Notes under the pieces: generated by a model
The model's database searches: none
What the model was told of the DNA's origin: nothing
What the model saw: only the letters and a program-made list of their open reading frames with translations
Part shown: positions 3,331 through 24,745 of the stretch, piece by piece
Layout of the letters: each line of letters starts with the position of its first letter
Numbering within the stretch: position 1 is the first letter of the stretch
From: a virus
DNA: 24,745 bases
Reading direction: 5' to 3' (one strand)
IMG/VR virus record: IMGVR_UViG_3300012936_000157
Span: 1-24,745 of that record
Program-made: the position numbers and the translations under genes

Positions 3331-3349
3331 CAATCGTATTTAATTTGTG

Positions 3350-4785: not shown

Positions 4786-5422
4786 CAATAAATTCCTGTA
4801 ATTGTTTTGCCCATTCCTCGTGCCCTTTTTTAGATGGATGTGGATCATGAGAACTAACAATGTAGTTCTTGTCGTTTATAAATTCAAAATGACTAACCTT
4901 TGGACTAAAGAACCTATCCATGTTGATTGCACTTCTAATAACCTCAAAGTCTGCTGTACCGTTGCCGAAATCATTAGGTAGCGAATTATACATCACATAG
5001 GGTATTTTATTACGTTCAAAATAGTTTTGAAGATCAAAAACATTTTCTAAAAAATTCATTGTTAAATTATTTTCAATATCCCAACCTTTGTTATTACGTA
5101 TGAAACTTACATTATCAAGTGTTTTCCAAGTACGCCAAGTTAGATCTGTTCCGGGTATACGCCCTTTTTTCCATCCATCATCCGTGATGTAATCATTCCT
5201 TACTGCACTAGACCAACCTATGACAGCAAACACATCTTTGCCTTTATTCTGTTCAAACCATACCTTTGATGAAAAACTAATCCTCACATTTCCTCTGCCA
5301 CCCATTGCAAGGTTTTGTAGTTCCATTCCATAATGTTCTGCAAGAACTTTACTGGTAAATGTTTCTACTCCATCTTTAGGTCTAGGAGTTAAGAAACTGC
5401 AACCGTTTGAAAATAATATCAT
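4760..5422 (-). CDS. SGNH/GDSL-family hydrolase
   Basis: A 220-residue protein with the four SGNH blocks. The Ser nucleophile is in FSNGCSF (Ser9), the Gly of block II in AMGGRGN (40-45), block III in the IGWSSAVRN segment (68-76), and the Asp-x-x-His pair in SSHDPHPSKKGHEEWA (Asp193, with His195 close by). SGNH enzymes are esterases or acyl transfer enzymes, and phage and cell-surface members often remove or move acetyl groups on polysaccharides. There is no signal peptide, so it acts in the cytoplasm or on virion components. It is the first gene of the minus-strand block and lies directly behind the promoter at 5431-5460. The Asp/His spacing is close to the usual DxxH but reads DPH here, so the exact catalytic pair is uncertain. 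Confidence 0.75.
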   Translation of the reverse strand: MILFSNGCSFLTPRPKDGVETFTSKVLAEHYGMELQNLAMGGRGNVRISFSSKVWFEQNKGKDVFAVIGWSSAVRNDYITDDGWKKGRIPGTDLTWRTWKTLDNVSFIRNNKGWDIENNLTMNFLENVFDLQNYFERNKIPYVMYNSLPNDFGNGTADFEVIRSAINMDRFFSPKVSHFEFINDKNYIVSSHDPHPSKKGHEEWAKQLQEFIDANDLRTI

Positions 5423-6542: not shown

Positions 6543-7279
6543 ACCTTTCGGTATTACAAAAGAAACCAACAGTTATAAAAGAACCATATCCTCACTTTGT
6601 AATTGAAGAAGCATTGCCGGAGGACATCTACAGGCAACTTGAACAGGAATGGCCGGAGCAACAACTATTGGCCACGGAACCGCATGACAACGGTGTTTGC
6701 TACAGACTAAAAGCAGATGAAATGTTGAAGCCAGAAAAAGTTTCTAACTTATGGAAAGAATTCACAGACTATCATACATCAATAGAATTTTACAAAGAAG
6801 TAAAGGAACTCTTTACAGAAATCAAACATGACAATCCAACGCTAGGTCCACGTGGTTGGGCGGCTAAAACAGATACCATATGGACAGACTGCCAAACTGT
6901 AATGCACAAGCCTATCGATACAACAACAAGATCTCCACACATAGATAATCCTCGAGAAATTTATGCCGGACTACTTTACATGCCTTACGCTGGTGATCAA
7001 AGCAAGGGAGGTGAATTCCAGATATATCACAATGTTGGAAATGTCGTTGACGTTGACATGAAAAAAGGAAGACAGATATTTGAATCAAACCTAGGACAAG
7101 TTTACAAAACAGTGCCTTACAAGGCCAACACGTTTGTTATGTTCCTTAACAATTCCACAAACGCCATACACGGAGTGACACCAAGGATAGAAGCATCTGT
7201 GCATAGACGTAGTGTGAACATCATAGCAGAATACAGTAGAGCAAGTAGACAACAAATGTTCTCAGTCACCGAAAAATGA
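6539..7279 (+). CDS. 2OG-Fe(II) oxygenase (P4H-like)
   Basis: A 246-residue dioxygenase that would use 2-oxoglutarate, Fe(II) and O2 to hydroxylate a substrate. The iron-binding triad reads His134-x-Asp136 (SPHIDNP) and His211 (NAIHGVTPR). A basic residue for 2OG, Arg223 or Arg224, falls in VHRRSVNII. A jelly-roll strand pattern (YAGLLYMPYAGDQSKGGEFQIY, then ANTFVMFLNN) supports the fold. The 150-residue spread of the triad and the N-terminal EPYPHFVIEEALPEDIY segment match phage enzymes that act on proteins or sugars. Start and stop overlap the flanking genes by four bases each. Its target could be a sugar, a lipid or a virion protein; the sequence does not say which. Confidence 0.85.
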   Translation: MNLSVLQKKPTVIKEPYPHFVIEEALPEDIYRQLEQEWPEQQLLATEPHDNGVCYRLKADEMLKPEKVSNLWKEFTDYHTSIEFYKEVKELFTEIKHDNPTLGPRGWAAKTDTIWTDCQTVMHKPIDTTTRSPHIDNPREIYAGLLYMPYAGDQSKGGEFQIYHNVGNVVDVDMKKGRQIFESNLGQVYKTVPYKANTFVMFLNNSTNAIHGVTPRIEASVHRRSVNIIAEYSRASRQQMFSVTEK

Positions 7280-8085
7280 TTTCAGGTATACACACAACCA
7301 AGCCGCGTACACAACGTTACGTTGAGGCTTTTGTAAAAGGATCAGGCAATGGAAAGATATACCAATTTAGAGATCTCAAATCATTGCCTGAGGAAGAACT
7401 AACAATGTACGGCATATTGGCGGGATCTGGTGAAGTTTATAAACAGTGTGAGAAAGAAAAAAAGAACTTTTATTTTATGGATCATGGCTATTTTACAAAT
7501 GCCCATGATAGTCCACACTGGTTACGAATAACAAAAAACAAGCATTGTCAAAATGAAATGCAAAAAAGGCCAGCAGATAGATATGAGAAATATTTCAAAC
7601 AAGAAATAAGATCTTGGCACAAAGGAAAAAAAATACTAGTGTTACCGCCAACAAATGCAATATCTAATTTTTTCGGTGTTGACGATTGGCTGGACAATAC
7701 TTTAAAGACACTTAAAGAAAATACTGACAGACAAATTGACATCAGAGAAAAACCTTACAATCCAACAATCGCTATTGACCATGTGGGGGCGACTGTAAAA
7801 GTTGATAAGCCAACAGAACATAAAGGTCCTATACAGTGGGATGATTATTTTGCTACAGTAACATATAACTCAAACACAATGATAGCCAGCCTTTGTAACG
7901 GTGTTCCTGTGTTCTGTGATTCAATTAACAGCGGTGCCGCACCCATATCAGAAACAGATTTTAGTAAAATAGAAACGCCTAAATACGGTGACAGAGTTGC
8001 TTTATTTTCAAGCCTAGCGTATAATAATTGGACTATGGAAGAAATGGCAAATGGCACAGCATGGAGAATGATTAATGAAAGTTGA
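7276..8085 (+). CDS. Capsular polysaccharide synthesis-type protein (GT-B-like), paralogue 2
   Basis: A 269-residue member of the four-copy family. It aligns along its whole length with the gene at 3973-4785: YFMDHGYF with YWFTDTPYF, KKILVLPPTNAISNFFG with KHVLVCPSSTGIHDYL, a TDRQIDIREKP segment with TDRPIKLRHKP, and ASLCNGVPVFCD with EAICEGIPVFCD. It ends SLAYNNWTMEEMANGTAW, as do its relatives. The loop reads TYNSNTMIAS in place of the SCSISAVEA or HSSNPAMEA of others. Such proteins usually act on nucleotide sugars in capsule or lipid-glycan synthesis. The start overlaps the oxygenase stop (ATGA, 7276-7279). Confidence 0.65.
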   Translation: MISGIHTTKPRTQRYVEAFVKGSGNGKIYQFRDLKSLPEEELTMYGILAGSGEVYKQCEKEKKNFYFMDHGYFTNAHDSPHWLRITKNKHCQNEMQKRPADRYEKYFKQEIRSWHKGKKILVLPPTNAISNFFGVDDWLDNTLKTLKENTDRQIDIREKPYNPTIAIDHVGATVKVDKPTEHKGPIQWDDYFATVTYNSNTMIASLCNGVPVFCDSINSGAAPISETDFSKIETPKYGDRVALFSSLAYNNWTMEEMANGTAWRMINES

Positions 8086-9058
8086 AATTTTTAGAAGATC
8101 AGTAAAGGATAGACGTAAAGGGAACAGTTGGGATTTGCTATATCATTTAAAAGAAGGCATAGAAGCATCAGGCGATGAGGCAGTAATCGTAAACGAACAC
8201 AGAACAGGACCTACAGTTCCAGGCGAGATGACCCCGACTGCACCAATGGCGGCAATGTTTGGCTACGGTGGTGATAAGCAAATGCATCACACCAAAGGCA
8301 GACGTAGAGAACTTGCAGATAACTGTAGAGCAAAAAAGATACCATTAATAACATTCGATGGGGGTCTACTGTCTAGTTTTGGCAACGTATCAACATCTCC
8401 CGATCATCATTTTAGAGTTGCATTGTATACTCCAATGAATGACGGCAACTTTCTATCTGATAATAGTCCTAGCGATCGTTGGGACATGATGGTCAAAAAA
8501 TTCAAAGTTAAGTACGAGCCATGGCGCAAGTCTGATCAAAAGGACCCTATAATATTTGTGCTTCAACCTAAAGACAACTGGAGCATGAATGAACTTGATC
8601 CAATAGAATGGTTCAAAGGTGTATATGACAAACTGAGGCCTATTACTGATAGGAAATTTATTGTGCGGCCACATCCAAATCACGTTGCACCAATAGTTGA
8701 TCGTAAAGACGAGTTACCGGAAGACATAGAATTACAATATACACAAAAGCATTTTTCAGGAGATGAAAAGAAGTTCTATAGATTCCATTTCCAAGAAGCA
8801 ATATCAAATGCACATGCAGTTGTAACGCACAACTCAACAGCAAGTACTGACAGTTGCATACGAGGTATACCCACTTTCTGCACATCTGATCTCGCTCTAT
8901 GTTGGGACGTATGCAACAAAGATTTGAACAATATCGAGACTCCCGAATACCCAGACAGAACTCAATGGGTGCATGACCTTGGATACAAGATGTGGAGCAT
9001 CAAAGAAATCAGAGACGGAACAGTTTACAAAAGGTTCAAATCAAAACTAGGTTTGTAA
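8075..9058 (+). CDS. Capsular polysaccharide synthesis-type protein (GT-B-like), paralogue 3
   Basis: A 327-residue, somewhat longer member of the family. It has a full RPHPNH motif (about residues 197-202, KFIVRPHPN). The family block VVTHNSTASTDSCIRGIPTFC follows (about 249-269), then WDVCNKDLNNIETPEYPDR and LGYKMWSIKEIRDGT near the C-terminus. In GT-B capsule enzymes the RPHP and the Ser-Thr turn line the donor site. It overlaps the gene before it by 11 bases and the next gene by TAATG (9056-9060). Its N-terminal 150 residues share little with the other copies, so the acceptor side may differ. Function is inferred from the motif layout only. Confidence 0.65.
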   Translation: MKVEIFRRSVKDRRKGNSWDLLYHLKEGIEASGDEAVIVNEHRTGPTVPGEMTPTAPMAAMFGYGGDKQMHHTKGRRRELADNCRAKKIPLITFDGGLLSSFGNVSTSPDHHFRVALYTPMNDGNFLSDNSPSDRWDMMVKKFKVKYEPWRKSDQKDPIIFVLQPKDNWSMNELDPIEWFKGVYDKLRPITDRKFIVRPHPNHVAPIVDRKDELPEDIELQYTQKHFSGDEKKFYRFHFQEAISNAHAVVTHNSTASTDSCIRGIPTFCTSDLALCWDVCNKDLNNIETPEYPDRTQWVHDLGYKMWSIKEIRDGTVYKRFKSKLGL

Positions 9059-10773
9059 TGTGCGGCATATATGGCATAACAGACAATGATCCTAAATTCA
9101 TTGAGGATTATTTAGAAATATGTAAACACAGAGGCCCAGACGGTTCCAACATATATTCATCGAGTAAAGTAACACTAGGCCACAACCTTTTAAGCATAAT
9201 GGCAGATCCAGACAAGTCGCAACAGCCATGGATTACGCCAAAAGGCAACCGCCTCGTGTACAATGGTGAGATCTTCAATTACGATCAACTAGTGAAAAAA
9301 TATAAAGAATTCAAAGATACCACAGGGTGCGACACCGAATTACTTGCTTGGGGTTTAGACCAATATGGGATTGATTTCTTAGACGAAATTGATTCCATGC
9401 ATGGCTTTGCCTACTACAATTACCAAAATGAAACCATAACGCTATCTCGCGACCATGCTGGCATCAAACCATTGTACTACGCTGAGATCGATCGAGGACT
9501 AGTGTTTGCGTCAGAAATCAAAGGAATGTTAGATATTGTGCCAAATGCAAGAACACTTGACAATCTTGCTTGTAGTATGATGACCAAAGCAGGCACCAAT
9601 CCATTGAGGAACACCTTGTTTACGAATATCAAAAAAGTCTTACCTGGCGAAACAATAGTTTATGACATAGTTGAAAAGACTATCGATTATGCAAAAAGAA
9701 TTTACGTGAAACCAAACGCCAACAAAGATTATTCTAAAAGTGAATTGAAAGAAATGTTTGCTCTAGCAGTAAGACAGTGTTGTATAGGACAAAGAGAAAT
9801 AGGGGTATTCTTAAGTGGAGGCATAGATTCATCTATTGTTGCATATGAATTACAACAATTCAAGAACAAGGTTAACTCTTTCACGAATAGAATCACACCC
9901 GAGACAGTTGCCGATGAAGACTACAACAGCGATTCTAAAGTAGCAAAGAAGTTTGCCAAAGAACAAAATTTTAATCATCATGATGTTGTAATCTCACCGG
10001 CGGAGTATCTATCTGCATGGGAAGACAGTATATGGTTCCAAGAACAACCAATATATAATCCTAGCAACGCGATGTATTGTTACACAAACAAATATCTTGC
10101 AGATCACAAAATAATTGTAACACTTGCAGGAGACATGGGAGACGAATTATTTGGTGGTTACCCAAAATATTTAGAACTATACAATACAAAAGACAAACCA
10201 AAGTCGTGGCGAGAACTGTTACAATTATGGATGCAAAGAATTAGAAAGGGCAGTTACGCATTGACTGATACACCAGAGGACGACGAGGTCTTGCTAAATG
10301 AATTAGAAAATTGCTACAGCGACGAGTTATGGAATCCAGATGATCCAACTGCTTCATACATGGCTTTAGATTGTGTTGCACAGGTGCCTGACTGTTTCCT
10401 TGCACGTAATGACAATTACGGAATGGCCTACAGCATGGAAGGTAGATTTCCTTTGGCATCTAAAAAGTTTATGCAATATTGCCTAGATATCAAATCTGAA
10501 CACAAGTTCAAGGGAGGAAGTGTAAAGGCATTGGTTAAAGACTCATACAGGAAGTTTCTTCCCGATTACATACTAGACAAGCCAAAGACAGGATGGACTG
10601 TGCCAATTGGTTATTGGATAATGGACGGTGTAGATAAAAAATTAAGTGAAGTGTATGCAGAGACCATTGGTGCAGATAGGTTGAAACTGGTTGGTAGATC
10701 ACAGAAGATTGGAAAAAGGTTAATACCGGAATGGCAAATAAAAAGTTGGAAGGAAAAATATCAAATTAAATAA
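9058..10773 (+). CDS. asnB: Asparagine synthetase (glutamine-hydrolysing)
   Basis: A 571-residue, full-length class II glutamine amidotransferase plus synthetase (E. coli AsnB is 554 aa). Met1-Cys2 gives the catalytic cysteine in MCGIYGI. The glutaminase side shows HRGPDG, YNGEIFNY, DTELL and RDHAGIKPLYY. The synthetase side has the PP-loop SGGIDSS at about 253-259 and the AGDMGDELFGGY segment at about 358-369. The reaction takes Asp, Gln and ATP to Asn. Phage and sugar-cluster relatives sometimes amidate carboxyl groups of uronic acids instead, and the location among sugar genes favours that reading here. The start at 9058 is fixed by the required Cys2; an earlier in-frame start at 8992 would be wrong. 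It overlaps the gene before it by TAATG. Confidence 0.9.
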   Translation: MCGIYGITDNDPKFIEDYLEICKHRGPDGSNIYSSSKVTLGHNLLSIMADPDKSQQPWITPKGNRLVYNGEIFNYDQLVKKYKEFKDTTGCDTELLAWGLDQYGIDFLDEIDSMHGFAYYNYQNETITLSRDHAGIKPLYYAEIDRGLVFASEIKGMLDIVPNARTLDNLACSMMTKAGTNPLRNTLFTNIKKVLPGETIVYDIVEKTIDYAKRIYVKPNANKDYSKSELKEMFALAVRQCCIGQREIGVFLSGGIDSSIVAYELQQFKNKVNSFTNRITPETVADEDYNSDSKVAKKFAKEQNFNHHDVVISPAEYLSAWEDSIWFQEQPIYNPSNAMYCYTNKYLADHKIIVTLAGDMGDELFGGYPKYLELYNTKDKPKSWRELLQLWMQRIRKGSYALTDTPEDDEVLLNELENCYSDELWNPDDPTASYMALDCVAQVPDCFLARNDNYGMAYSMEGRFPLASKKFMQYCLDIKSEHKFKGGSVKALVKDSYRKFLPDYILDKPKTGWTVPIGYWIMDGVDKKLSEVYAETIGADRLKLVGRSQKIGKRLIPEWQIKSWKEKYQIK

Positions 10774-10777
10774 TACC

Positions 10778-11698
10778 ATGCCTACACTAGCAGTAGTAAC
10801 AACTTTTCCACCAAACAGATGGACAGCATATGCCAAAAGGATGTTGGAAAGCCACATTGAATTCTGGCCGGACGATGTTATTCTGTATGCATACCATGAA
10901 GGTGAAAAGCCTGAACTCGAACACGCAAAGATAAAATTTGTCAATATCGAAGACGTCAACCCCGAATTAGTAAAATTCAAACAAAGACACAAGAATGACC
11001 CTGTGGCCAATGGAGAAGTGGATGAAATACCTGGTGGTGTGCGAAGAAATCCAAACGCAGGTAAAAATGACAGAGGTAAAGGATCTTATCTATGGGACGC
11101 TGTGAGATTTGCTCATAAAACGTTTGCCGTTGATCATGCACTTAAAAACATCGACGCAGATTATGTGTTGTGGCTGGATGCGGACACATACACATTTAGA
11201 AAAATTACTACGGAGTTCGTCACAGGATTACTTCCAGAAAACAAACTTGTAAACTATCTAGGCAGAGGTGACAAATATCCAGAATGTGGTTGGGTGTGCT
11301 ACAACAGAATGCATCCAAAAATTTCAGAGTTCATGCAGTATTGGACAGACCTTTACATAAAAGACACAATATTTGAAGAGTTGGAATGGCACGACAGTTA
11401 TCTGTTCTGGCAGTGTGTCAAACGTATAGCACCCAACGACGGAGTTGACATAGGTAAAGGTGCAGGGGCAAAAGGTCACCATGTGTTCATCAATAGTGTT
11501 TTAGGAGCATACATCGACCACATGAAAGGCAAAAGGAAAGTAAAAGGAAAAAGTAGCAAAAGCGATCTGCGTGGAGATAGAAACGAAGACTACTGGAAGA
11601 ACGTGGAGAACTATGATCCGTTTGGTGGTGTAAAGTTTGATCCGAAGCAGGCAGAGGACATCGTAAGCAAAGTTGCCAAAGGAAAGCAGGGTAACTAA
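10778..11698 (+). CDS. GT-A-type glycosyltransferase
   Basis: A 306-residue protein with the marks of a GT-A transferase. The N-terminal strand is LAVVTTFPPNRW, a DxD metal site sits in LWLDADTYTF (Asp134-x-Asp136), and a late acidic segment EWHDSYLFW at about 207-215 could supply the catalytic acid. The last 60 residues are Lys- and Arg-rich (KGKRKVKGKSS), which may be a flexible basic tail or a membrane or nucleic-acid contact. The start lies four bases after the asparagine synthetase stop. The stop overlaps the next ATG (TAATG at 11696-11700). The donor is not known. It differs clearly from the GT at 534, so it is not a recent copy. Confidence 0.65.
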   Translation: MPTLAVVTTFPPNRWTAYAKRMLESHIEFWPDDVILYAYHEGEKPELEHAKIKFVNIEDVNPELVKFKQRHKNDPVANGEVDEIPGGVRRNPNAGKNDRGKGSYLWDAVRFAHKTFAVDHALKNIDADYVLWLDADTYTFRKITTEFVTGLLPENKLVNYLGRGDKYPECGWVCYNRMHPKISEFMQYWTDLYIKDTIFEELEWHDSYLFWQCVKRIAPNDGVDIGKGAGAKGHHVFINSVLGAYIDHMKGKRKVKGKSSKSDLRGDRNEDYWKNVENYDPFGGVKFDPKQAEDIVSKVAKGKQGN

Positions 11699-12570
11699 TG
11701 AGGATAGAAGCATGGCCCGAGTATGGCCCTTTGAACTCTAAAAACATTTTTTCAAAATTTATAAGTTCGGTGCAGAATACCGGAGACACTGTAAGTGTCA
11801 ACAAAGAAACCAATGGCGACGTTGCTGTTATATGGAGTGTGCTATGGCGTGGCAGAATGGCACAATACAAAAGGATTTGGGACAGATATAGAAAACAAGG
11901 CAAGCCAGTTATTGTAATAGAAGTAGGAGGACTACGTAGGAATCTTAGTTTCAAAATAGGAATAAACGGCATCAACAGAGATGCTGATTTCGCCAACCAA
12001 AAGTACGATGACAAGCGTTGGCCTCTATTCAACCATGAACTGCGTCCTTGGAATCCAACGGGGGATATAATCGTAATATGTGGTCAACACGACTCTTCGG
12101 AGCAATGGAAAGGACTTCCGAGGATGTCTCAATGGATAGAACAACAGATTACAACAATAAGAAAATTTACAACTCGCCCAATACTAGTAAGACCGCATCC
12201 GCGAAATCAGATTCAATTTCAAGAATCAAAATTTGAGAACGTTAAAGTTAGATTGCCAAGAAGAGATTACAGAACATATGACGACACAGATTTCAAAGCC
12301 ACACTAGAAAGGACTTGGGCAGTAGTGAATCATTCTAGTAACCCTGCCATGGAGGCAGTAATTAAAGGGATACCTGTATTTGTATCAGAGTCTAGTCTAT
12401 GCCACGATGTTGGCAATGTAAAGTTAGAAGATATCAACACACCAGCGATGCCAAACAGGCACACGTGGGCACACAAACTTGCATACACCGAGTGGTTCGA
12501 GGACGAGATAGAACAAGGTCTACCATGGGCAAGAATAAAGAAAAGACTTGAGGAGAAATACTTGAAATGA
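11698..12570 (+). CDS. Capsular polysaccharide synthesis-type protein (GT-B-like), paralogue 4
   Basis: A 290-residue member of the four-copy family and the one with the cleanest motifs. RPHPRN lies at 165-170 in TTRPILVRPHPRNQ. VVNHSSNPAMEAVIKGIPVF spans 209-228, the turn HDVGNVKLEDINTP 236-249, and LAYTEWFEDEIEQG 261-274. DVGNV is also found in paralogue 1. These fit the donor-binding half of a capsule-type GT-B enzyme. The N-terminal half contains WSVLWRGRM and VIVIEVGGLRR, which look like the other Rossmann-like domain. It overlaps the 2OG oxygenase gene after it by four bases (12567-12570). Confidence 0.7.
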   Translation: MRIEAWPEYGPLNSKNIFSKFISSVQNTGDTVSVNKETNGDVAVIWSVLWRGRMAQYKRIWDRYRKQGKPVIVIEVGGLRRNLSFKIGINGINRDADFANQKYDDKRWPLFNHELRPWNPTGDIIVICGQHDSSEQWKGLPRMSQWIEQQITTIRKFTTRPILVRPHPRNQIQFQESKFENVKVRLPRRDYRTYDDTDFKATLERTWAVVNHSSNPAMEAVIKGIPVFVSESSLCHDVGNVKLEDINTPAMPNRHTWAHKLAYTEWFEDEIEQGLPWARIKKRLEEKYLK

Positions 12571-13070: not shown

Positions 13071-13812
13071 CATAGGTCAGAGAAACATTATTGAACCAAT
13101 AGAATTCAAAAAGTACGAAGGTGAAGATGTCTGTGTAAGCACCGTTATACGTAAAGGCAAACGTATACAAGAGTGGCAATTTTATCCAGACAAGGTCAAT
13201 TGTGAGCCACGTGGTAACGCATACGTCATAGGTAACGGGCCGTCACGGAAACACTTTGACCTTAACAAATTGAAAGAGACAGGCCAGACTTATGGCTGTA
13301 ATGCATTATACAGAGATTACATGCCGGACTTTATTTTTTCTGTGGATACAAAAATGACACAGCAGATGGTGGCAGACGAAGTTGGACTGAAAACAATACA
13401 CTATGCACCTGCACTAGAAGTAAACAGGAAACAAAGTAAAGGCATGCTACATCTAATACCCAACAATCCTCACTGGATATCAGGTAACGCCGCTTTTTGG
13501 ACAGCAGGTGTGCATGGACACACGAGCATTTATCTATTGGGATTTGATTTTCGAGAATACGGAAAAGGCGAACTGAACAACATATATCAAGACACAGATT
13601 GTTATGGAGAACGTAATGATGATAAGATATTCGAAGGCTGGTTGAAACAATTCAGAGATATGTTAAAGATGAGACCTTATGTGAATTACACTGTTGTGCA
13701 TGACAACCCACCTGAATTTCTAAACTATTTGCAGACAGGCACAGACCTAGGAAACAGTAAAGTGATTAGTTACGCGGAATTTGAAAAGGTACTAACACCT
13801 GGACAGGCCTAG
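13057..13812 (+). CDS. GT42/DUF115-like protein
   Basis: A 251-residue protein whose central segment reads VIGNGPSRKHFDLNKL (residues 57-72), then YGCNALYRDYMPDFIFSVD (79-97). The GNGPS turn, the following Asn-rich strand and the Asp in SVD are typical of GT42 sialyltransferases such as CstII and of DUF115 proteins related to them. Both groups bind CMP-sugar-like or pterin-type nucleotides. FDFREYGKGEL around 164-174 could be part of the acceptor side. The first 55 residues have no match that I recognise. It closes the plus-strand island and overlaps the SprT-like gene tail to tail by 21 bases. If GT42-like, it could add a sialic-acid or related sugar, but no CMP-sugar synthase is visible in the window. 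Confidence 0.6.
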   Translation: MKTINIGQRNIIEPIEFKKYEGEDVCVSTVIRKGKRIQEWQFYPDKVNCEPRGNAYVIGNGPSRKHFDLNKLKETGQTYGCNALYRDYMPDFIFSVDTKMTQQMVADEVGLKTIHYAPALEVNRKQSKGMLHLIPNNPHWISGNAAFWTAGVHGHTSIYLLGFDFREYGKGELNNIYQDTDCYGERNDDKIFEGWLKQFRDMLKMRPYVNYTVVHDNPPEFLNYLQTGTDLGNSKVISYAEFEKVLTPGQA

Positions 13813-14286
13813 ACCTGCATTCTTAAATTTATTTTTCCAAGCAAAGAAATTTTTGTTGTGATTTGCATATGGATCTTGCACCCATGTCATCTGGTAAAGA
13901 TGCACCATTTCGTGTGCTAAAGTCTCTATAAAGTCTTTCCATTTAGGAAATTTACAATGCAGTTCTATATAGAATTCAACATCTATGTGATAAGGAATCA
14001 CACGCTGGTCAAACTTGCCTTTTGGAGTTTTTCTGTTGTCCCAATTGGCAACACATCTGCCCCAATCGTTATGTAATTTCTTGACTTGAATGTGTACCAT
14101 TGGTAATCTGCTGTTAAAAAGTCCTCTGTTTATAACCTTGAACCAATGATATGCTTGTTCTTGCGTAGGCTTAAAACCTTTAATATTTTTGTGCCTAGTC
14201 AGAGTATTTTCCAACTTAACTTTAAGTTGTTTTCTAGCATTTACCTTTTTACTTTTAGTTTTTTTCACGGTTGACAATATTACCAA
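13792..14286 (-). CDS. SprT-like zinc metallopeptidase
   Basis: A 164-residue SprT/Spartan-type protein. The zinc site is HEMVH at 125-129 (ETLAHEMVHLYQ), with a third His at 143 in ANHNKNFFAWKNKF, the usual spacing for the family. An N-terminal Lys-rich tail (about 1-25) could bind DNA. Eukaryotic Spartan cuts DNA-protein crosslinks; the function of phage copies is unsettled. No ATG is available in the first 60 codons, so it must start at TTG (14286 or 14277) or GTG (14268), each without a clear ribosome site. The start lies in the promoter region of the replication operon on the other strand. The stop runs 21 bases into the gene before it. Confidence 0.75.
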   Translation of the reverse strand: MVILSTVKKTKSKKVNARKQLKVKLENTLTRHKNIKGFKPTQEQAYHWFKVINRGLFNSRLPMVHIQVKKLHNDWGRCVANWDNRKTPKGKFDQRVIPYHIDVEFYIELHCKFPKWKDFIETLAHEMVHLYQMTWVQDPYANHNKNFFAWKNKFKNAGLGLSRC

Positions 14287-15677: not shown

Positions 15678-17144
15678 ATGAGTAGTTGTAAATTAGTAAT
15701 AAAAGACGAAGTGAATGTGAAGTTCGAGAACTTATCACTCGAATGGCGTAAGAGACTTTCCAATAAATTCAAATATGAGATACCGTACGCAAGACATTTG
15801 CCTGCTGTCAAACTAGGCAGGTGGGATGGCAAAGTAAGTTTTTTTGGCTTAGGTGGCACAACATACTTGAACCTCGTGGACCAGATACTGCCCATACTAG
15901 AAGATGGTGGTGTGTACGTAGACTTCGAAGACAAAAGGCCACAGCATTCCTATGAATTCAAAGCCGTAGATAAAAACTATCTCTCTCACATCACATGGCC
16001 TGACAATCATCCTGCCGCAGGACAACCAATTGTGTTGCGAGACTATCAAGTTGAAACAATAAACAAGTTCATCGAACATCCACAAAGCATACAAGAGATC
16101 GCCACAGGCGCAGGTAAGACTATCATTACAGCGGCACTATGCCAATTGGTTGAACCTTATGGGAGGACACTAACAATCGTGCCAAATAAAAGTCTAGTTA
16201 CACAAACCGAAGAGGACTTCTTAGCATGTAACTTAGATGTTGGTGTTTACTATGGCGACCGTAAAGAACTAGGAAGATATAACACTATTGCAACGTGGCA
16301 ATCATTGAATGTGCTTGAAAAGAAAAGCAAGGACGAACATACAACAGACTTTCTAGAAGCAATACAAGGCATTAGCACAGTCATAATAGATGAAGTACAC
16401 ATGGCAAAAGCAGACGTGTTGAAAAGATTGCTGACAGGACCATTTGCACATTGTGGTATAAGGTGGGGACTAACTGGCACAGTTCCAAAAGCAGATTATG
16501 AATTCATGGGCCTGAAATGTAGCATTGGTGATGTGTCAAATAGAATACAAGCAAGTGAACTGCAAGACAAAGGTGTATTAGCAAACTGCCACGTTAATGT
16601 TTTGCAAACACAAGACCATCCACAATTCAAAACCTATGGAGAAGAATTGAAATGGCTGACAACCGATACCACTAGGATGTCTTGGGTGGCAAAAACTATA
16701 CAGGACATAGCAACATCAGGTAACACACTGATTCTTGTAGATCGAATTTCAGCAGGTGAGATACTTGAGAAGAAAATAAAGGATTCAGTGTTTGTATCTG
16801 GATCTACAAAAAACACAGACAGGAAGGAACAATATGATGAAATATCTACTAGCCAAAATAAAGTTATTATTGCCACATATGGAGTTGCCGCTGTTGGGAT
16901 TAATATTCCTAGGATTTTTAATCTTGTCCTTATAGAACCGGGCAAGTCCTTTGTAAGGGTGATCCAAAGCATAGGACGTGGCATCAGGAAAGCAGAAGAC
17001 AAGGACAGCGTACAGATATGGGACATTACCAGTAGTTGCAAGTTTGCAAAAAGACACCTGGGTGCAAGAAAAAAGTTTTACAAAGAGGCAAATTATCCGT
17101 ATAATATAGAAAAGATAAATTATGAAAATCCTTACACTAGATAA
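15678..17144 (+). CDS. uvsW: UvsW-like SF2 DNA/RNA helicase
   Basis: A 488-residue protein (T4 UvsW is 503 aa). Walker A reads EIATGAGKT around residues 138-147, Walker B VIIDEVHMAK around 234-243, motif III LTGTVPK at about 273, and motif VI VIQSIGRGIRK at about 427-437. T4 UvsW unwinds branched DNA, regresses stalled forks and helps shut off origin-primed replication by removing RNA primers, which moves replication to the recombination-dependent mode. The N-terminal 110 residues look like the small UvsW-specific domain (WRKRLSNKFKYEIPYARHLPAVKLGRWDGKVSFF). Its final 23 bases overlap the next gene, and a -10/-35 pair lies inside its tail (17077-17105). Confidence 0.92.
   Translation: MSSCKLVIKDEVNVKFENLSLEWRKRLSNKFKYEIPYARHLPAVKLGRWDGKVSFFGLGGTTYLNLVDQILPILEDGGVYVDFEDKRPQHSYEFKAVDKNYLSHITWPDNHPAAGQPIVLRDYQVETINKFIEHPQSIQEIATGAGKTIITAALCQLVEPYGRTLTIVPNKSLVTQTEEDFLACNLDVGVYYGDRKELGRYNTIATWQSLNVLEKKSKDEHTTDFLEAIQGISTVIIDEVHMAKADVLKRLLTGPFAHCGIRWGLTGTVPKADYEFMGLKCSIGDVSNRIQASELQDKGVLANCHVNVLQTQDHPQFKTYGEELKWLTTDTTRMSWVAKTIQDIATSGNTLILVDRISAGEILEKKIKDSVFVSGSTKNTDRKEQYDEISTSQNKVIIATYGVAAVGINIPRIFNLVLIEPGKSFVRVIQSIGRGIRKAEDKDSVQIWDITSSCKFAKRHLGARKKFYKEANYPYNIEKINYENPYTR
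17077..17105 (+). promoter_or_regulatory. Putative sigma70 promoter inside the uvsW tail
   Basis: TTTACA (17077-17082, one mismatch) lies 17 bases before TATAAT (17100-17105, perfect). The ATG of the next gene is at 17122, 17 bases after the -10. Spacing is ideal. The block is AT-rich coding DNA where chance matches occur, so the call is tentative. It would let the genes from 17122 onward be made separately from uvsW. Confidence 0.4.
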
Positions 17145-17842: not shown

Positions 17843-18275
17843 AAAATTTTTTGATCTAAGAAACGGACTCAAAGCAGTAGACTTCCGAAACAAGGACTAC
17901 TTTGATAGGATAGACGAAAAAGAAAAATCACTATATTCACCTTACATGTTGATGAGATACGTGTCCAGTTGTTCTTCAAAAGATAAGTTCTATGTTGAAC
18001 ACTACGTCGAAATGGTCAATGAATGCGTCAACAAACACTGTTTCACACTTGGCAAACACAAGAAACTTTTATGGATATTGACGGCGATGTGTGGTTCACT
18101 ACAACAGCAATTCCATCCATGGATCAAACCCATGAAGCGTGTACCAAATAAAAGTTTGAAAAAATTACAACAGATATATCCAACATGGAAAGAGACTGAC
18201 TTGGAGACACTAGACAAAGTGATCACTGACAGGGAACTGGAGGAACTGATAGAAGCACATGGCCTCAACGAATAA
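17823..18275 (+). CDS. Probable clamp-loader small subunit (gp62-like)
   Basis: A 150-residue protein placed where gp62 could sit in a T4-like replication module. The segment LYSPYMLMRYVSSC (about 38-51) corresponds to the Pro-x-x-x-x-Arg-x-Leu-Ser motif near the start of marine phage gp62 proteins. The stretch WKETDLETLDKVITDRELEELI (about 122-143) fits their C-terminal helical end, and FHPWIKPMKRV fits the KRFGKW-like turn. T4 gp62 is 187 aa and joins gp44 to load the gp45 clamp. The similarity is faint and seen only by eye. If it is gp62, gp44 and gp45 must lie outside this window, which is unusual because gp44 is often adjacent. Overlaps the next gene by 17 bases. Confidence 0.5.
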   Translation: MPAEKNRKFFDLRNGLKAVDFRNKDYFDRIDEKEKSLYSPYMLMRYVSSCSSKDKFYVEHYVEMVNECVNKHCFTLGKHKKLLWILTAMCGSLQQQFHPWIKPMKRVPNKSLKKLQQIYPTWKETDLETLDKVITDRELEELIEAHGLNE

Positions 18276-18942
18276 ATGCACTTACTGTGGTAAAGAATTT
18301 GCAAAGGCAAGAACACTGCAAGTACATCTGTGCGAACCAAAAAGAAGATATCTACAACGAGATGAGAAGTGGGTGGTGAATGCCTTTATGGTGTTTCAAA
18401 GATTCTATCAAATACATCAACACAATTCTAAGCCAAAGACATATGATGACTTTGTAAAGAGTTCGTACTACAATGCTTTTGTTAAGTTCGGCAGATTCAT
18501 AATGCACATCAATCCTATATACCCAGACAAATATATAGACTATGTCCTACAGTCAAAAGTGAAATTAGATCACTGGGCGAGAGATGATCTTTATGAACTG
18601 TATCTGGTTGAAGCACTTAAAAGCGAACCTGTGGAGGCCGCCCTACAGAGAAGCATAGCAACCATGATGGACTGGGCAACCGAACAGAATGCACAATGGT
18701 CAGATTACTTTAGATTGGTCAACACAAACAGAGCAGTGGCACACATACAACAAGGAAAAATAAGTCCATGGTTGTTGTTAGGTTGCAAGGCAGGCAAAAG
18801 AATGCTAAAATCATTCAACGACGAACAATTACAAATGATAGAAAAATTTATAAACCCAAGTTTTTGGCCAAGCAAGTTGAAAAGTTATCCAGCGGATCTA
18901 ATGCTTGTTCAGGACACAGCGAGGGAGGCAAAAATTGTCTAA
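18259..18942 (+). CDS. Zinc-finger protein of the replication operon
   Basis: A 227-residue protein with a single N-terminal C2H2-like finger (CTYCGKEFAKARTLQVHLC, residues 7-25). Here the pair is Cys-x2-Cys and the far side reads His-x-Cys instead of His-x3-His, so zinc would be bound as C2HC. The rest is helical. Its last 90 residues (WSDYFRLVNTNRAVAHIQQGKISPWLLL, then FINPSFWPSKLKSYPADL) recall the C-terminal part of gp59-type helicase loaders, which also have a helical core with a similar length of about 217 aa. This is only a resemblance. T4 gp59 has no such finger. It overlaps gp62-like by 17 bases and the next gene by 8. Confidence 0.55.
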   Translation: MASTNKCTYCGKEFAKARTLQVHLCEPKRRYLQRDEKWVVNAFMVFQRFYQIHQHNSKPKTYDDFVKSSYYNAFVKFGRFIMHINPIYPDKYIDYVLQSKVKLDHWARDDLYELYLVEALKSEPVEAALQRSIATMMDWATEQNAQWSDYFRLVNTNRAVAHIQQGKISPWLLLGCKAGKRMLKSFNDEQLQMIEKFINPSFWPSKLKSYPADLMLVQDTAREAKIV

Positions 18943-19168
18943 GATAGATTTAGAAGTTTCTGACAACTTGGAGTTTGACGATGGAGACTGTGCTGTGATA
19001 ATCAAAGAAGATGGATCCATAGGACGAGTAATAATGCCAAAAGTCGACAAGGAAATATTAAAGACTGAAGGTTATAGGAAACTGCTTGATGTACTGGAAG
19101 TATTACAACCAGGATCACGCGACAAGATGATACAACATGCAGAAAAAGATAAAGGGAGTGTACACTAA
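18935..19168 (+). CDS. Conserved hypothetical protein (77 aa)
   Basis: I take the TTG at 18935 as start because a strong GAGGGAGG site lies about six bases upstream; a TTG at 18905 lacks one. The protein reads SKIDLEVSDNLEFDDGDCAVIIKEDGSIGRVIMPKVD, then a helix YRKLLDVLEVLQPGSRDKMIQHAEKD. The pattern, a small strand pair with Asp-rich loops and a helical tail, occurs in marine T4-like phages without a known role. It overlaps the zinc-finger gene by 8 bases and the next gene by one (TAATG). Confidence 0.65.
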   Translation: MSKIDLEVSDNLEFDDGDCAVIIKEDGSIGRVIMPKVDKEILKTEGYRKLLDVLEVLQPGSRDKMIQHAEKDKGSVH

Positions 19169-19761
19169 TGCCTGACGTAGACATAGACTTTTTCGATAGA
19201 GACACAACACTGAAGTTGTTCAAGCACACACCGGCATCAATGCGAAACAAAAAAGGAGACATTGAGAAACACAAGACTGGAGTGTACTTCCATGCTGTCC
19301 CAGAACATCCTGTGACAGGACATGCGTCTCTGGAATACAAGGAAGCAGAAAAAAGAGGGTACTTCAAGATAGACTGCCTTAATGTGAACATATACAAAGA
19401 AGTCAAGTCAGAGCAAGAACTTGTAGAACTAATGATACAGGAGCCTGACTGGGATATGCTCAAAGATCCAAAAGTTGTTGATCAACTGTTCCATTTGAAC
19501 GGACACTACAGCATTGTATCAAAACTCGAACCAAAGAATATAGAACAACTTGCGGCTGTGTTGGCAATAATACGTCCTGCCAAAAGACAACTGATGTACA
19601 AGGACTGGGTTGATATAATGGCAGAGGTATGGATAAAGCCAACTGACGGATCTTATTTCTTCAAGAAGTCACATGCTATTGCATATGCCCAAGCCATAGT
19701 AGTGCAGATGAATTTGTTACAAAAGGCTAAATATAGTTTTGATGCAACATCAAAAAACTAA
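19168..19761 (+). CDS. Reduced DnaE (DNA polymerase III alpha)-like protein
   Basis: A 197-residue protein that matches scattered parts of the DnaE polymerase core in order. MPDVDIDFFDRD (1-12) matches the PDFDVDF motif with the two catalytic aspartates (Asp3, Asp5). HKTGVYFHAV (35-44) matches the H-A-G-V-V-I-like strand. EAEKRGYFKIDCLNVNIY (59-76) matches the segment carrying the third aspartate (Asp69). HLNGHYSIVSKLEPKNIEQLAAVLAIIRP (109-137) matches the FQLES to RPG region. FFKKSHAIAYA (164-174) matches the NKSH-x-A-Y-A motif near the thumb end. Bacterial DnaE is over 1000 aa; here the PHP, most fingers and the whole C-terminus are absent. It may be an accessory, a decoy or a remnant. Activity is not assured. 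Confidence 0.65.
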   Translation: MPDVDIDFFDRDTTLKLFKHTPASMRNKKGDIEKHKTGVYFHAVPEHPVTGHASLEYKEAEKRGYFKIDCLNVNIYKEVKSEQELVELMIQEPDWDMLKDPKVVDQLFHLNGHYSIVSKLEPKNIEQLAAVLAIIRPAKRQLMYKDWVDIMAEVWIKPTDGSYFFKKSHAIAYAQAIVVQMNLLQKAKYSFDATSKN

Positions 19762-19897
19762 AAAAAGAATCAAACCAAAATCCAAAAAAAAATCCAAGTC
19801 ATCGTATCGTTCAGAGAGCAACAGTTATCAGCCGAATAGTCCTTTAACACAACATTATCTGATAACAGGTGCTATACTTCCTGAAAAAAAGGACTAG
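19742..19897 (+). CDS. Small basic ORF (51 aa)
   Basis: A 51-residue frame that starts inside the last codons of the DnaE-like gene (20-base overlap) and ends with TAG. The first 20 residues are almost all Lys, Arg, Ser and Gln (MQHQKTKKRIKPKSKKKSKS), the rest is PNSPLTQHYLITGAILPEKKD. The pattern of a basic, disordered head and a short hydrophobic tail suits a nucleic-acid-binding or clamp-binding peptide. No strong ribosome site is visible. It overlaps the minus-strand gene end to end by four bases, and fills what would otherwise be a gap of about 130 bases. Confidence 0.4.
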   Translation: MQHQKTKKRIKPKSKKKSKSSYRSESNSYQPNSPLTQHYLITGAILPEKKD

Positions 19898-20268
19898 ACA
19901 GGTCTTCGTACTAATTGGATAGTTTTTCTTTTTACCCGTTTCTTTGAAATATCAGAAAGCCTTACCGTTGGACCATGCACTATCTCAACATCTTTTGAAT
20001 TAAGAGTTATTAAGGTAGTCCTAAAATATCTAAAATCACCTTTAAGGAAAATGTTGATTGGTAATTTTCTGTTTGATTCATGCCACCAAGTTTCGCCACA
20101 CTTCAAAAATTTCATCTTGTCTGCTGGTAACATGAGCCTGCCATAGTCATAGAAACTGATTACGTTGGTGTCTTCGTTTTGTACTATACCAACATACTCC
20201 AAATCACCCTTTCTTATCAGGCTTAAAAATGGGAATTTGTCCCTAAGGGTGTTAAAAATTTCGTTCAT
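19894..20268 (-). CDS. Hypothetical phage protein
   Basis: A 124-residue protein that I do not assign. It begins MNEIFNTLRDKFPFLSLI, then strands EYVGIVQNEDTNVISFYDYG, a turn LMLPADKMKFLKCGETWWHESN and a basic tail (SKKRVKRKTIQLVRRP). The shape, a small strand-rich body with a basic end, resembles small phage regulators, but no motif is diagnostic. It is the only minus-strand gene in this part and lies divergent from the late structural gene, so it could be expressed at a different time. Only 32 bases separate the two starts. Confidence 0.6.
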   Translation of the reverse strand: MNEIFNTLRDKFPFLSLIRKGDLEYVGIVQNEDTNVISFYDYGRLMLPADKMKFLKCGETWWHESNRKLPINIFLKGDFRYFRTTLITLNSKDVEIVHGPTVRLSDISKKRVKRKTIQLVRRPV

Positions 20269-21090: not shown

Positions 21091-22110
21091 ATGAACCTGA
21101 TCCAGTCTACTATTCTGACGAACTTGCCTACGGGACAAAAGAAAACTCCTAGTGGGTGGATAAGTTTCAATGCACCCTGTTGTGTACACAATGGAGAAAC
21201 AGCAGACAAGAAAAAACGTGGTGGCATCATGAATTCTTCTGATGGCACAGTAACCTATCACTGTTTCAACTGCGGTTACAAAGCAAACTATACACCTGGA
21301 CGTAAAATTAATTACAGGATGAGAATGCTTCTCAGTTATCTGCACATACCTGACGAAACAATACGTAAACTGGCACTACAGGCCTTGCGTGAAGAAGGAA
21401 CTGGAAATACTTACACGAAAAAAGAGTTTACTTTCTTTGATCTCAAACCTTTGCCAAAGAACACACAGCCACTGGGGTCGTGGCTAGAAAAATATCTTGG
21501 TGAGGATTTGACTCCGCAACAACACAGCAAGATTGATGCATTAATAAAATATCTGCAGGACAGAGGAATTGGTGCTGATTGGTACCCTTTCATGTACTCT
21601 CCAGATAAGTCATGGGACATGCATCAGAGAGTACTGATACCATTCTATTGGAGGAACAAGATAGTTGGCTTCACTGCGAGACAGTTTGAAGAAACAAGAT
21701 TTTCCAAAGTAAAATACTACACAGATGTACAGCCTGGTTATGTGTTCAATGTGGATGCACAAGATTGGCAAAGGAAATTTGTGATCGTGACAGAAGGCCC
21801 ATTTGATGCCATAGCCGTTTCTGGTGTGAGCATACTTGGTTCAGAGATAAATGATACACAGCGGGAGTTGATACAAGAATTGAACAGACAGGTAATTGTT
21901 GTTCCTGACAGAGATGCCCCAGGACAGAAACTGATAGACCAAGCAATAGAGTTTGGTTGGAGCGTTGCTTTTCCAAATTGGGATAAAACGGTTGGCGACG
22001 TGGCGGAGGCTGTGTTAAAATATGGAAGGTTGTTTACGATACAATCGATATTGAAATCAACAGAAACAACCAAACTGAAAATAGAATTGAAACGGAAAAT
22101 GTATGGATAA
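21091..22110 (+). CDS. 61: DNA primase (gp61-like)
   Basis: A 339-residue primase (T4 gp61 is 342 aa). The zinc site reads CCVHNG (Cys30, Cys31, His33) with HCFNCGYK (Cys58, Cys61). The TOPRIM core is KFVIVTEGPFDAIAVSG around residues 228-244, with the acidic DRD of VPDRDAPG around 272-278. It makes short RNA primers at the fork for lagging-strand synthesis and works in a complex with gp41, coded 0.4 kb downstream. The gene starts 11 bases after the structural gene. Its stop is overlapped by the next small gene. No oddity in key residues is seen. Confidence 0.93.
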   Translation: MNLIQSTILTNLPTGQKKTPSGWISFNAPCCVHNGETADKKKRGGIMNSSDGTVTYHCFNCGYKANYTPGRKINYRMRMLLSYLHIPDETIRKLALQALREEGTGNTYTKKEFTFFDLKPLPKNTQPLGSWLEKYLGEDLTPQQHSKIDALIKYLQDRGIGADWYPFMYSPDKSWDMHQRVLIPFYWRNKIVGFTARQFEETRFSKVKYYTDVQPGYVFNVDAQDWQRKFVIVTEGPFDAIAVSGVSILGSEINDTQRELIQELNRQVIVVPDRDAPGQKLIDQAIEFGWSVAFPNWDKTVGDVAEAVLKYGRLFTIQSILKSTETTKLKIELKRKMYG

Positions 22111-22261: not shown

Positions 22262-22494
22262 CGGAATTCACACACGGCATACAAGGAGCAGTAAAAAGAC
22301 TCATTGCAGGATCAAGTGTGGGTCTCGCTGTCATATACACACTGGGTCATATTGTTATAGCAATGACCGTAGTAAGTGTGATGACGGGTGCCAGTTTGTG
22401 GGAGGCAGGAGCAGTTGCCTTGATTGAACCTAGCATAAACGGTATTTGGTTTTACATACTACATTCACTGTGGAAAAAGTACAAAGGACTATAA
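22258..22494 (+). CDS. DUF2061 membrane protein
   Basis: A 78-residue inner-membrane protein with two hydrophobic helices: GLAVIYTLGHIVIAMTVVSVM (about 22-42) and a weaker second one around WEAGAVALIEPSINGIWFYIL (about 48-68). The second carries the family pattern in which an Ala-Gly-Ala stretch is followed by Ile-Glu-Pro and then Tyr-x-Leu-His-x-x-Trp. DUF2061 proteins are found in marine bacteria and phages and have no defined role. The start overlaps the coiled-coil gene and the stop overlaps the helicase start, which ties it to replisome genes. A link to membrane attachment of replication is speculation. Confidence 0.8.
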   Translation: MTEFTHGIQGAVKRLIAGSSVGLAVIYTLGHIVIAMTVVSVMTGASLWEAGAVALIEPSINGIWFYILHSLWKKYKGL

Positions 22495-23933
22495 TGGCTG
22501 AATACACATTTGACGTACAGAAACTTTACATAGAGATGCTATTGGCAGATGCTGAATCATTTGCAAGGGCACAGAATATCTTCAAGCCAGAGTCGTTTGA
22601 TCGTAAACTGCAACCAGTTGCAAAATTTATCAAGGACTACATGGACGAGTACAAGGTAATGCCTGAGGTCGAACAAGTAAATGCAAAACATGACATCACA
22701 CTCAAATCGGCAAAGGATTTAGATCCAAGTCACTTTAATTGGCTACTAGACGAATTTGAAACATTTTCAAGACACAAAGCACTAGAACGTGCGATATTAC
22801 AATCTGCTGACATGCTAGAAAAAGGCGACTATGCTCCTGTAGAGGACATGGTCAAAGACGCTGTCAACGTTGGACTCACACGTGATCTTGGTACAGACTA
22901 CTTTGAGGATCCGAAAGGAAGACTTGAGGCACTCAAGGCAAACAACGGACAGATCAGCACTGGCTGGCAAAATCTCGACAAGAAACTATTCGGTGGATTT
23001 AATCGAGGAGAACTAAACATCTTTGCAGGTGGATCAGGCGCAGGTAAAAGTTTGTTCTTACAGAATCTTGCGGTGAATTGGGCACAGGCTGGTCTGAACG
23101 TTTGTTACATATCTTTTGAATTGTCGGAACAACTTACCGCTATGAGGTTAGATGCTATGATGACAAACATACCAACTAAAAAGGTGTTTCCTGAAATAGA
23201 GAATGTGGAAATGAAAGTCAAGATGTTGAAAAAGAAATCAGGAACACTACAGATCAAATACTTGCCAAGTGGTAGCAACGTGCTTGATGTAAGGACGTAT
23301 CTAAAAGAACTAGAACTTAAGAACAAGAAAAAGATAGACTGCATATTGATTGATTACTTAGATTTGATGATGCCGAAGAGCAAAAGAATAAGTCCAGCAG
23401 ACTTGTTTATCAAAGACAAATACGTTTCAGAAGAACTGAGAAACTTGGTTGTGGAAAAACAATGTGTATTGGCAACAGCATCTCAGTTGAATAGAGCATC
23501 TGTTGAAGAAATTGAATTTGATCACTCTCACATATCAGGCGGACTATCCAAGATACAGACGGCTGACAACGTGATAGGTATATTCACATCAAGAGCAATG
23601 AAAGAACGTGGTAGATATCAGATTCAATTTATGAAGACTAGATCAAGTTCTGGTGTTGGACAAAAAGTTGATTTGGAGTTTGATGTGGACAGTTTGAGAA
23701 TCAGAGACTTGGCGGACGACCCGGAATACAAACAATTTGACAAACAAAGAAGCACAATATATGATAACCTTAAGAAAACATCTAAAGTTACAGGTGGTGA
23801 CACATCAAAAGATGCTAGGAATGAGGTGCCGGATCCTACAAAAGGCGACACAATTGGTAAAGTAAAAGCCACTGTAGAAGGTGGCAAACTGAGACAACTT
23901 CTAAACGAACTGCACTCAGATGAAGAACAGTAA
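22494..23933 (+). CDS. 41: Replicative DNA helicase (gp41-like, DnaB family)
   Basis: A 479-residue hexameric 5'-3' helicase (T4 gp41 is 475 aa). Walker A reads AGGSGAGKSLF around residues 178-188, the DnaB-type strand VCYISFELSEQ around 203-213, and Walker B CILIDYLDLM around 282-291. SQLNRASVEE follows with the sensor Gln/Asn, and the C-terminal ring-contact end has FMKTRSSSGVGQKV. It unwinds the lagging-strand template and pairs with gp61. The N-terminal 150 residues form the helical collar. I take the ATG at 22494, which overlaps the DUF2061 stop; a start at 22446 would lie inside that gene. The C-terminal tail is long, charged and probably flexible. It overlaps the endonuclease III gene by 14 bases. 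Confidence 0.93.
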   Translation: MAEYTFDVQKLYIEMLLADAESFARAQNIFKPESFDRKLQPVAKFIKDYMDEYKVMPEVEQVNAKHDITLKSAKDLDPSHFNWLLDEFETFSRHKALERAILQSADMLEKGDYAPVEDMVKDAVNVGLTRDLGTDYFEDPKGRLEALKANNGQISTGWQNLDKKLFGGFNRGELNIFAGGSGAGKSLFLQNLAVNWAQAGLNVCYISFELSEQLTAMRLDAMMTNIPTKKVFPEIENVEMKVKMLKKKSGTLQIKYLPSGSNVLDVRTYLKELELKNKKKIDCILIDYLDLMMPKSKRISPADLFIKDKYVSEELRNLVVEKQCVLATASQLNRASVEEIEFDHSHISGGLSKIQTADNVIGIFTSRAMKERGRYQIQFMKTRSSSGVGQKVDLEFDVDSLRIRDLADDPEYKQFDKQRSTIYDNLKKTSKVTGGDTSKDARNEVPDPTKGDTIGKVKATVEGGKLRQLLNELHSDEEQ

Positions 23934-24600
23934 TGACATCGAATACATATACGAGAAGTTGAGTTCTCTATATCCGAACTATTCAAACCGTAAACCAAAA
24001 GCAAAGATATATTCAAAAGCATACACAAGTTTAATTGGTGTCATGCTGTCTGCACAAAGCCAAGACAAAAGAACAGCAATCGCATGTAATCAACTTTTTG
24101 CATTGGCTGACACGCCTGAAGAAATGGTAAAACTAACACAGGAAGATATTATCGAAGCAATCAAGCCTGCAGGATTGTTCAATGCAAAAAGCAAAAACAT
24201 TCTTGCCACAAGCAAGATGTTGTTAGAAAAATTCAACGGACAGGTGCCTAGGACACAGAAAGAACTAATGACACTGCCTGGGGTTGGAAGAAAAAGTTCT
24301 GACATAGTCATGAGGTTTGTATTTGGTGAGCCACACATAGCGGTAGACACACACGTGTTCAGGATGTTATGGCGTCTGGGTTGGGCAGATAGTCTTGACG
24401 AGGGCAAAGCATCAATCACAGTGAACAACACAACACCAAGCAAATACAAATACGGTGCACACATGTGGTTGATTACACACGCAAAGAAAGTTTGCAAATC
24501 AAGATCTCCAGTTTGTGATCCTTGTGTGATAAGTGCGGCATGTGATAGGAGAGACATCGATATTCCTAAAAGTAAACTTCGCCAAAATTTACAGTCATAA
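23920..24600 (+). CDS. nth: Endonuclease III (Nth-type DNA glycosylase/AP lyase)
   Basis: A 226-residue HhH-GPD enzyme (E. coli Nth is 211 aa). The helix-hairpin-helix LPGVGRKSSDIV has the catalytic Lys125, and the GPD Asp is Asp143 in HIAVDTHVFRM. A C-terminal 4Fe-4S cluster has Cys192, Cys199, Cys202 and Cys208, spaced x6-x2-x5 as in Nth. It removes oxidised pyrimidines and cuts the strand. All active-site residues are present, so it is likely functional. It starts inside the helicase gene, so it is expressed with the replisome. T4 itself carries a different repair enzyme (DenV), so this is an accessory acquisition, possibly from a host. Confidence 0.93.
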   Translation: MKNSNDIEYIYEKLSSLYPNYSNRKPKAKIYSKAYTSLIGVMLSAQSQDKRTAIACNQLFALADTPEEMVKLTQEDIIEAIKPAGLFNAKSKNILATSKMLLEKFNGQVPRTQKELMTLPGVGRKSSDIVMRFVFGEPHIAVDTHVFRMLWRLGWADSLDEGKASITVNNTTPSKYKYGAHMWLITHAKKVCKSRSPVCDPCVISAACDRRDIDIPKSKLRQNLQS

Positions 24601-24663: not shown

Positions 24664-24745
24664 ATGAAAGACAAAGAACTGAACGACATAACAAGGCTGT
24701 ACGATAGATTCATTAGGCAATGTCCAGGCACAGAAGAATACACGC
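24664..24745 (+). CDS. Start of an unidentified gene (3' partial)
   Basis: The frame runs from ATG at 24664 to the window end (27 codons). It reads MKDKELNDITRLYDRFIRQC, then PGTEEYT. It is a charged, helical start with no diagnostic motif. AGG at 24658-24660 may serve as ribosome site but is close to the ATG. The rest of the gene is outside the window, so nothing can be said about function. Confidence 0.5.
   Translation, partial: MKDKELNDITRLYDRFIRQCPGTEEYT

Follow-up and report, generated by a model that had tools for sequence, protein, structure and literature searches.

The window, by which we mean the whole stretch of 24,745 nt of viral DNA analysed here, encodes a 197-aa protein (Table 1) from a family in which the palm of the DNA polymerase III alpha subunit (DnaE) is split over two genes and most of the fingers, together with the thumb, PHP and clamp-binding parts, have been lost. 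We propose that this protein is the C-terminal, metal-binding half (C half) of a nucleotidyltransferase palm of the DnaE type, reduced to a minimum, and that its most likely partner in assembly is the N-terminal half (N half), a product of about 175 aa from another gene, which would supply the GRGS motif. The two halves together would rebuild one C-family active site, and the rebuilt enzyme would work as a distributive accessory DNA polymerase beside the phage family B replicase, in repair, gap filling or post-recombination synthesis. Homology to DnaE, the fold, the intact catalytic residues, the seam, and the co-occurrence of the halves and of a family B polymerase (PolB) in relatives are documented below. 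Taken as a whole, the proposal, with the physical assembly, polymerase activity and role that we infer, is in our judgement probable.

Table 1 Features of the window at and around the gene of the C half
Feature	Position	Strand	Basis or remark
UvsW-type helicase; upstream end of conserved neighbourhood	15678..17144	+	helicase domains, synteny
C2H2-containing protein (phrog_11058); conserved upstream neighbour	18259..18942	+	profile and domain matches, synteny
Small ORF, 87 aa	18905..19168	+	overlaps start codon of the 19168 gene (TAATG)
C-terminal half of split minimal DnaE palm (phrog_11778)	19168..19761	+	197 aa; homology, profile, conservation, predicted structure
124-aa protein (phrog_11637); conserved downstream neighbour	19894..20268	-	profile match, synteny
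Toprim primase (gp61-like)	21091..22110	+	profile and domain matches
DnaB/gp41-type replicative helicase	22446..23933	+	profile and domain matches
HhH-GPD base-excision repair protein	23920..24600	+	lies between the genes for gp41 and the single-chain DnaE
Second, single-chain PHP-less DnaE-like gene, first codons (MKDKELNDITRLYDRFIRQCPGTEEYT), cut by window edge	24664..24745	+	identity to L211

The ORF of the C half starts with the ATG at 19168 and its product opens with MPDVDIDF. The stop codon of the preceding ORF overlaps this start, and a ribosome-binding-like AAAGGGAG lies 5' of it. In the neighbourhood comparison, small ORFs of comparable size were seen at the same spot in the loci of several relatives. 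With numbering fixed against the E. coli DnaE sequence, the protein is collinear with Pol III alpha and has all five segments in DnaE order: PDVDIDF (residues 2-8; E. coli PDFDVDF, 400-406), KHKTGVYF (34-41; KHAGGVV, from 510), FKID (66-69; VKFD, 552-555), IRP (135-137; FRP, 638-640) and KSHAIAYA (167-174; NKSH, from 757). Its key residues are the metal-binding D3, D5 and D69, together with K67, H35, R136-P137-K139 and H169. D3, D5 and D69 correspond to E. coli D401, D403 and D555, and D7 corresponds to D405. Aspartates of the D401/D403/D555 type are the catalytic metal-binding set, absolutely conserved across the C family, and the fourth is typical of DnaE, its place being taken by Asn in PolC (PMC3919608). 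This DnaE-typical fourth Asp is present here.

Read from one sequence alone, the resemblance to DnaE would be weak evidence. The Pfam finger domain scores 16.3 bits on the single window sequence, below the cut-off of 22; a search of NCBIfam with the protein gave zero matches, and single-sequence phmmer against the PDB gave chance matches only. Among profiles, the window protein matches phrog_405 (phage DnaE) with E=1.2e-4 and its Phosso homologue does so with E=4.5e-6, and a profile-profile comparison of the C half with the single-chain DnaE described below gave E=5e-7 (92%). The family profile of the C half found weak Pol III alpha matches in the PDB, the best with E 0.036.

AlphaFold models were built from the window and its IMG/VR relatives, with pLDDT of 86 for the C half and 90 for the N half (from contig G016). 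With the C-half model, Foldseek ranked Pol III alpha structures in all of the first 12 places among PDB matches; the E-values are modest for both halves (best 2e-3 and 4.5e-3). The VIA structural aligner placed C-family structures in the top 15 rows for the C-half model (Z 5.1-8.6, 177-194 of the 197 residues aligned), and the next row has Z 4.1. The C-half model thus has good matches to C-family polymerases only. Only C-family entries are among the matches listed for the N-half model (Z 7.3-12.0), the first 78 or so residues of the N half falling outside the alignments. A resemblance to DnaE by chance, which the Pfam match below the cut-off would allow, has a negligible probability and is ruled out by the profile and structure matches and the family-wide conservation given below. 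The sequence-only reading had claimed a reduced DnaE derivative with Asp3, Asp5 and Asp69 as catalytic aspartates, and the profile searches, the structure matches to DnaE and the correspondence with the C-family catalytic set bear this out.

The C half starts at the equivalent of DnaE Met399, and the part of the palm before it, with GRGS, is missing from the chain. The Pfam palm model, searched against ten named phage genomes, located in each of them a further ORF, far from the first and about 175 aa long. The C-terminus of this N half (phrog_11127) reads ...GRGSS...YDLDxxEFLK where DnaE has GRGSGAGS...FERFLN, and its profile aligns with E. coli DnaE up to residue 393. Spatial agreement of the two models was judged by their alignment ranges on solved structures. 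The N and C ranges are 279-392 and 401-781 on E. coli 2hnh, 306-412 and 419-856 on M. tuberculosis 5lew, and 825-964 and 971-1361 on PolC 3f2b; they adjoin with zero overlap, and the position of the seam is constant across the three. Both halves are present in 18/18 C-half records of at least 200 kb, namely the ten named phages and contigs G001, G002, G003, G006, G007, G010, G069 and G070; the shorter G016 and G073 also carry both, for a total of 20 relatives. Eight large contigs (at least 191 kb) were chosen by the N half alone, and in two of them, G005 (191 kb) and G011 (202 kb), both of which may be incomplete, the C half was not found. Among named phages the genus counts of the two halves are nearly equal. 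Because the models adjoin without overlap and every C-half record of 200 kb or more also has the N half, we conclude that the palm is split over two genes. The term polymerase core, used in the sequence-only reading, is thus right as to the DnaE derivation and the three aspartates and goes too far in that the N-terminal half of the palm is absent here and is a second, distant gene in relatives. For the same reason the stand-alone small nucleotidyltransferase that had been considered is unlikely.

A comparison of 127 distinct C halves, which include many close marine relatives but reach down to about 36% identity, shows D3, D5, D7, H35, K67, D69, R136, P137 and K139 without variation in every sequence that covers them. 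The nucleotide-binding GxGRGS, found in the N half and not in the C-half chain, is invariant in 86 of 86 distinct N halves. The invariance of catalytic residues in both halves argues for an active site in the split pair. A non-catalytic protein, such as a Pol III-derived accessory or a decoy of the host Pol III that needs the fold only, would fit the fact that lone half-palms are unusual, and no assay of one was found in the literature. We regard it as quite improbable, since about 125 distinct, widely divergent sequences all keep the three aspartates and K67, and all 86 N halves keep GRGS. Dead enzymes usually lose catalytic residues.

The spacing of the segments indicates what else has been lost. 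By this measure the thumb is deleted (8 to 35 here versus 406 to 511 in E. coli), as are most of the fingers (136 to 169 versus 639 to 760), and with this spacing 197 aa leave no room for PHP, thumb, clamp-binding and OB domains. By sequence length, E. coli residues 406-510 and about 640-757 would be largely gone. With the thumb and most of the fingers lost, processive, templated synthesis by the assembled pair appears doubtful. The halves might instead form a template-independent or special-substrate nucleotidyltransferase, for end-tailing or nucleotide modification, in keeping with the loss of these parts while the palm catalytic residues are all retained and with other families of the same fold that work without a template (PMC11646218). 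This alternative is unlikely, although less so than a non-catalytic role, because UvsW, primase and gp41 share the replication/recombination operon of the C half and because the RP and KSH finger elements are conserved. The accessory DNA polymerase is the preferred reading.

Over its full length the window protein belongs to phrog_11778 (E=2.4e-66, residues 3-188). Its homologues in 63 named phage records are 35-53% identical and cover at least 80% of the length; they come from jumbo T4-like phages that include Atu_ph07, Phosso, PA5oct, XacN1, GAP32, RaK2 and 121Q, and relatives are encoded on at least 569 IMG/VR stretches; megablast of the window against phage records gave no near relative. 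The neighbourhood is conserved in the order UvsW, small ORFs, C2H2 protein, C half, minus-strand gene, primase and gp41 helicase. Most phages examined keep it, and XacN1 and RAS14 keep part only. The T4-like replication operon described by the sequence-only reading is confirmed. In the lineage of the window the C half is under purifying selection, with a median uncorrected pN/pS of 0.13 over 66 relatives at a pS that is already high (0.67). The family is large, under purifying selection and described in 2021, so the protein is not a lone remnant. As a separate observation, one gene of the XacN1 locus (L085:8865-9458), some 2.3 kb away from the C half, carries the annotation of the epsilon subunit of DNA polymerase III, and GAP32 has an annotated exonuclease subunit upstream (L087:723-1568); a proofreading partner of the C half is possible.

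Elsewhere in the window, a 593-aa asparagine-synthase-type amidotransferase (phrog_16728) is encoded at 8992-10773 (+), among genes of the glycosyltransferase and nucleotide-sugar epimerase types (1619-3333), resembling a surface-sugar cluster. Apparent paralogues at 3973-4860 (-), 7276-8085 (+), 8075-9058 (+) and 11698-12570 (+) share, by eye, a short G.PVFC-like motif near the C-terminus and are possibly a glycosyltransferase-like family. A protein with an SprT-like metallopeptidase domain lies on the strand opposite to the operon (13792-14286, -).

A C-family gene alongside a family B polymerase had been noted as unexpected, and the two do coexist in relatives: of the records that have both halves and measure 200 kb or more, 16 were tested (the ten named phages and six contigs), and all of them have PolB. 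The partner of the window's own lineage was sought in the 24.7-kb window, where the N half was not found, and on contigs of the lineage up to 91 kb, none of which links it to the C half. In marine C-half contigs, some first matches to the N-half profile proved to be the different, single-chain DnaE gene, and a synteny comparison of the downstream part of G055 with G016 gave nothing useful. The C-half contigs have UvsW, primase and gp41 and have neither PolB nor the N half. The N-half contigs (up to 180 kb) are without uvsW, primase, gp41 and the C half, and five of the seven have a PolB with 65-69% identity to the PolB of G003 and G006, two contigs in which both halves are present. Since the gene contents are complementary, the simplest reading is that the two kinds of contig are two arms of one genome type, and we infer that the N half is present in the genome of the window.

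The last 82 bases of the window encode residues identical to the start of a 563-aa single-chain DnaE that is complete in a relative (L211:1372-3063), where its palm and finger domains exceed the Pfam cut-offs. The C half of the window's lineage might do without an N half, acting alone or with this protein, encoded about 5 kb downstream. The absence of the N half from the C-half contigs is in line with this, as is the presence of a C half upstream of the single-chain gene in 34/35 loci with enough upstream sequence. Such an arrangement is nevertheless very unlikely: complementary contigs are what two arms of a single genome type would give, the large relatives have both halves, and the single-chain gene is variable in the lineage, not found in G035 and reduced to a 26-aa tail in G037. 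PolB and the single-chain form are also present in the huge phage LR756508, which does not have the split pair. Next to the HhH-GPD gene, the single-chain DnaE is possibly a base-excision repair polymerase. Returning to the two-gene enzyme, we tentatively suggest, at somewhat less than even chances, that the marine lineage runs three DNA polymerases, namely PolB, the single-chain PHP-less DnaE and a DnaE core that lacks the thumb, is put together from the products of two unlinked genes and has an active site that spans the contact between its subunits.

If the halves do form an active enzyme, a polymerase active site would be shared between two polypeptides and the pair would define the minimum that a C-family polymerase needs. 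To our knowledge, the rebuilt thumb-less core would then be the smallest active C-family enzyme. Its activity would also give a reason for the retention of a bacterial-type polymerase by phages whose T4-like replisome is complete. In a computational study, Iyer et al. (2021) described group 2.2 jumbo phages that have a split minimal Pol III as well as a family B polymerase, and suggested that the split form could model ancestral Pol III (PMC7824862). Their analysis agrees with the split-palm reading; a laboratory follow-up of the split Pol III was not found in the open-access literature searched. The exact seam makes the ancestral idea testable with two small proteins. The window gene is a marine member of this already described kind, from an abundant lineage, and the new points are the coordinates of the seam, how abundant the marine lineage is, and the second, single-chain PHP-less DnaE gene at the right edge of the window.

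The split minimal Pol III of group 2.2 (phrog_11778/phrog_11127; PMC7824862) shares with the window the family, neighbourhood and type of split, and has the company of PolB that is seen in the large relatives. The window differs in belonging to a marine lineage of hundreds of IMG/VR contigs, in that the N half of this lineage is not linked on one contig, and in the single-chain DnaE gene adjoining the operon. With E. coli Pol III alpha (2hnh) the C half shares the palm fold and the equivalents of D401/D403/D405/D555, K553, H511, R639-P640 and H760. Unlike E. coli DnaE, it is without PHP, thumb, clamp-binding, OB and C-terminal domains, its fingers are reduced, and the N half of the palm is in another gene. 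In cyanobacteria, Pol III alpha is likewise made by two genes (DnaE-N and DnaE-C), and a split intein rejoins the full-size enzyme. The cyanobacterial break is far downstream, whereas the phage break is inside the palm, just before PDxDxDF, and at the seam neither phage half has an extension of sufficient length to hold an intein. The single-chain PHP-less DnaE-like protein (phrog_405/phrog_11165-like), found in the same phages and in LR756508, has a C-family palm with the same motifs and differs from the split pair in uniting palm, fingers and a C-terminal extension in one variably present chain.
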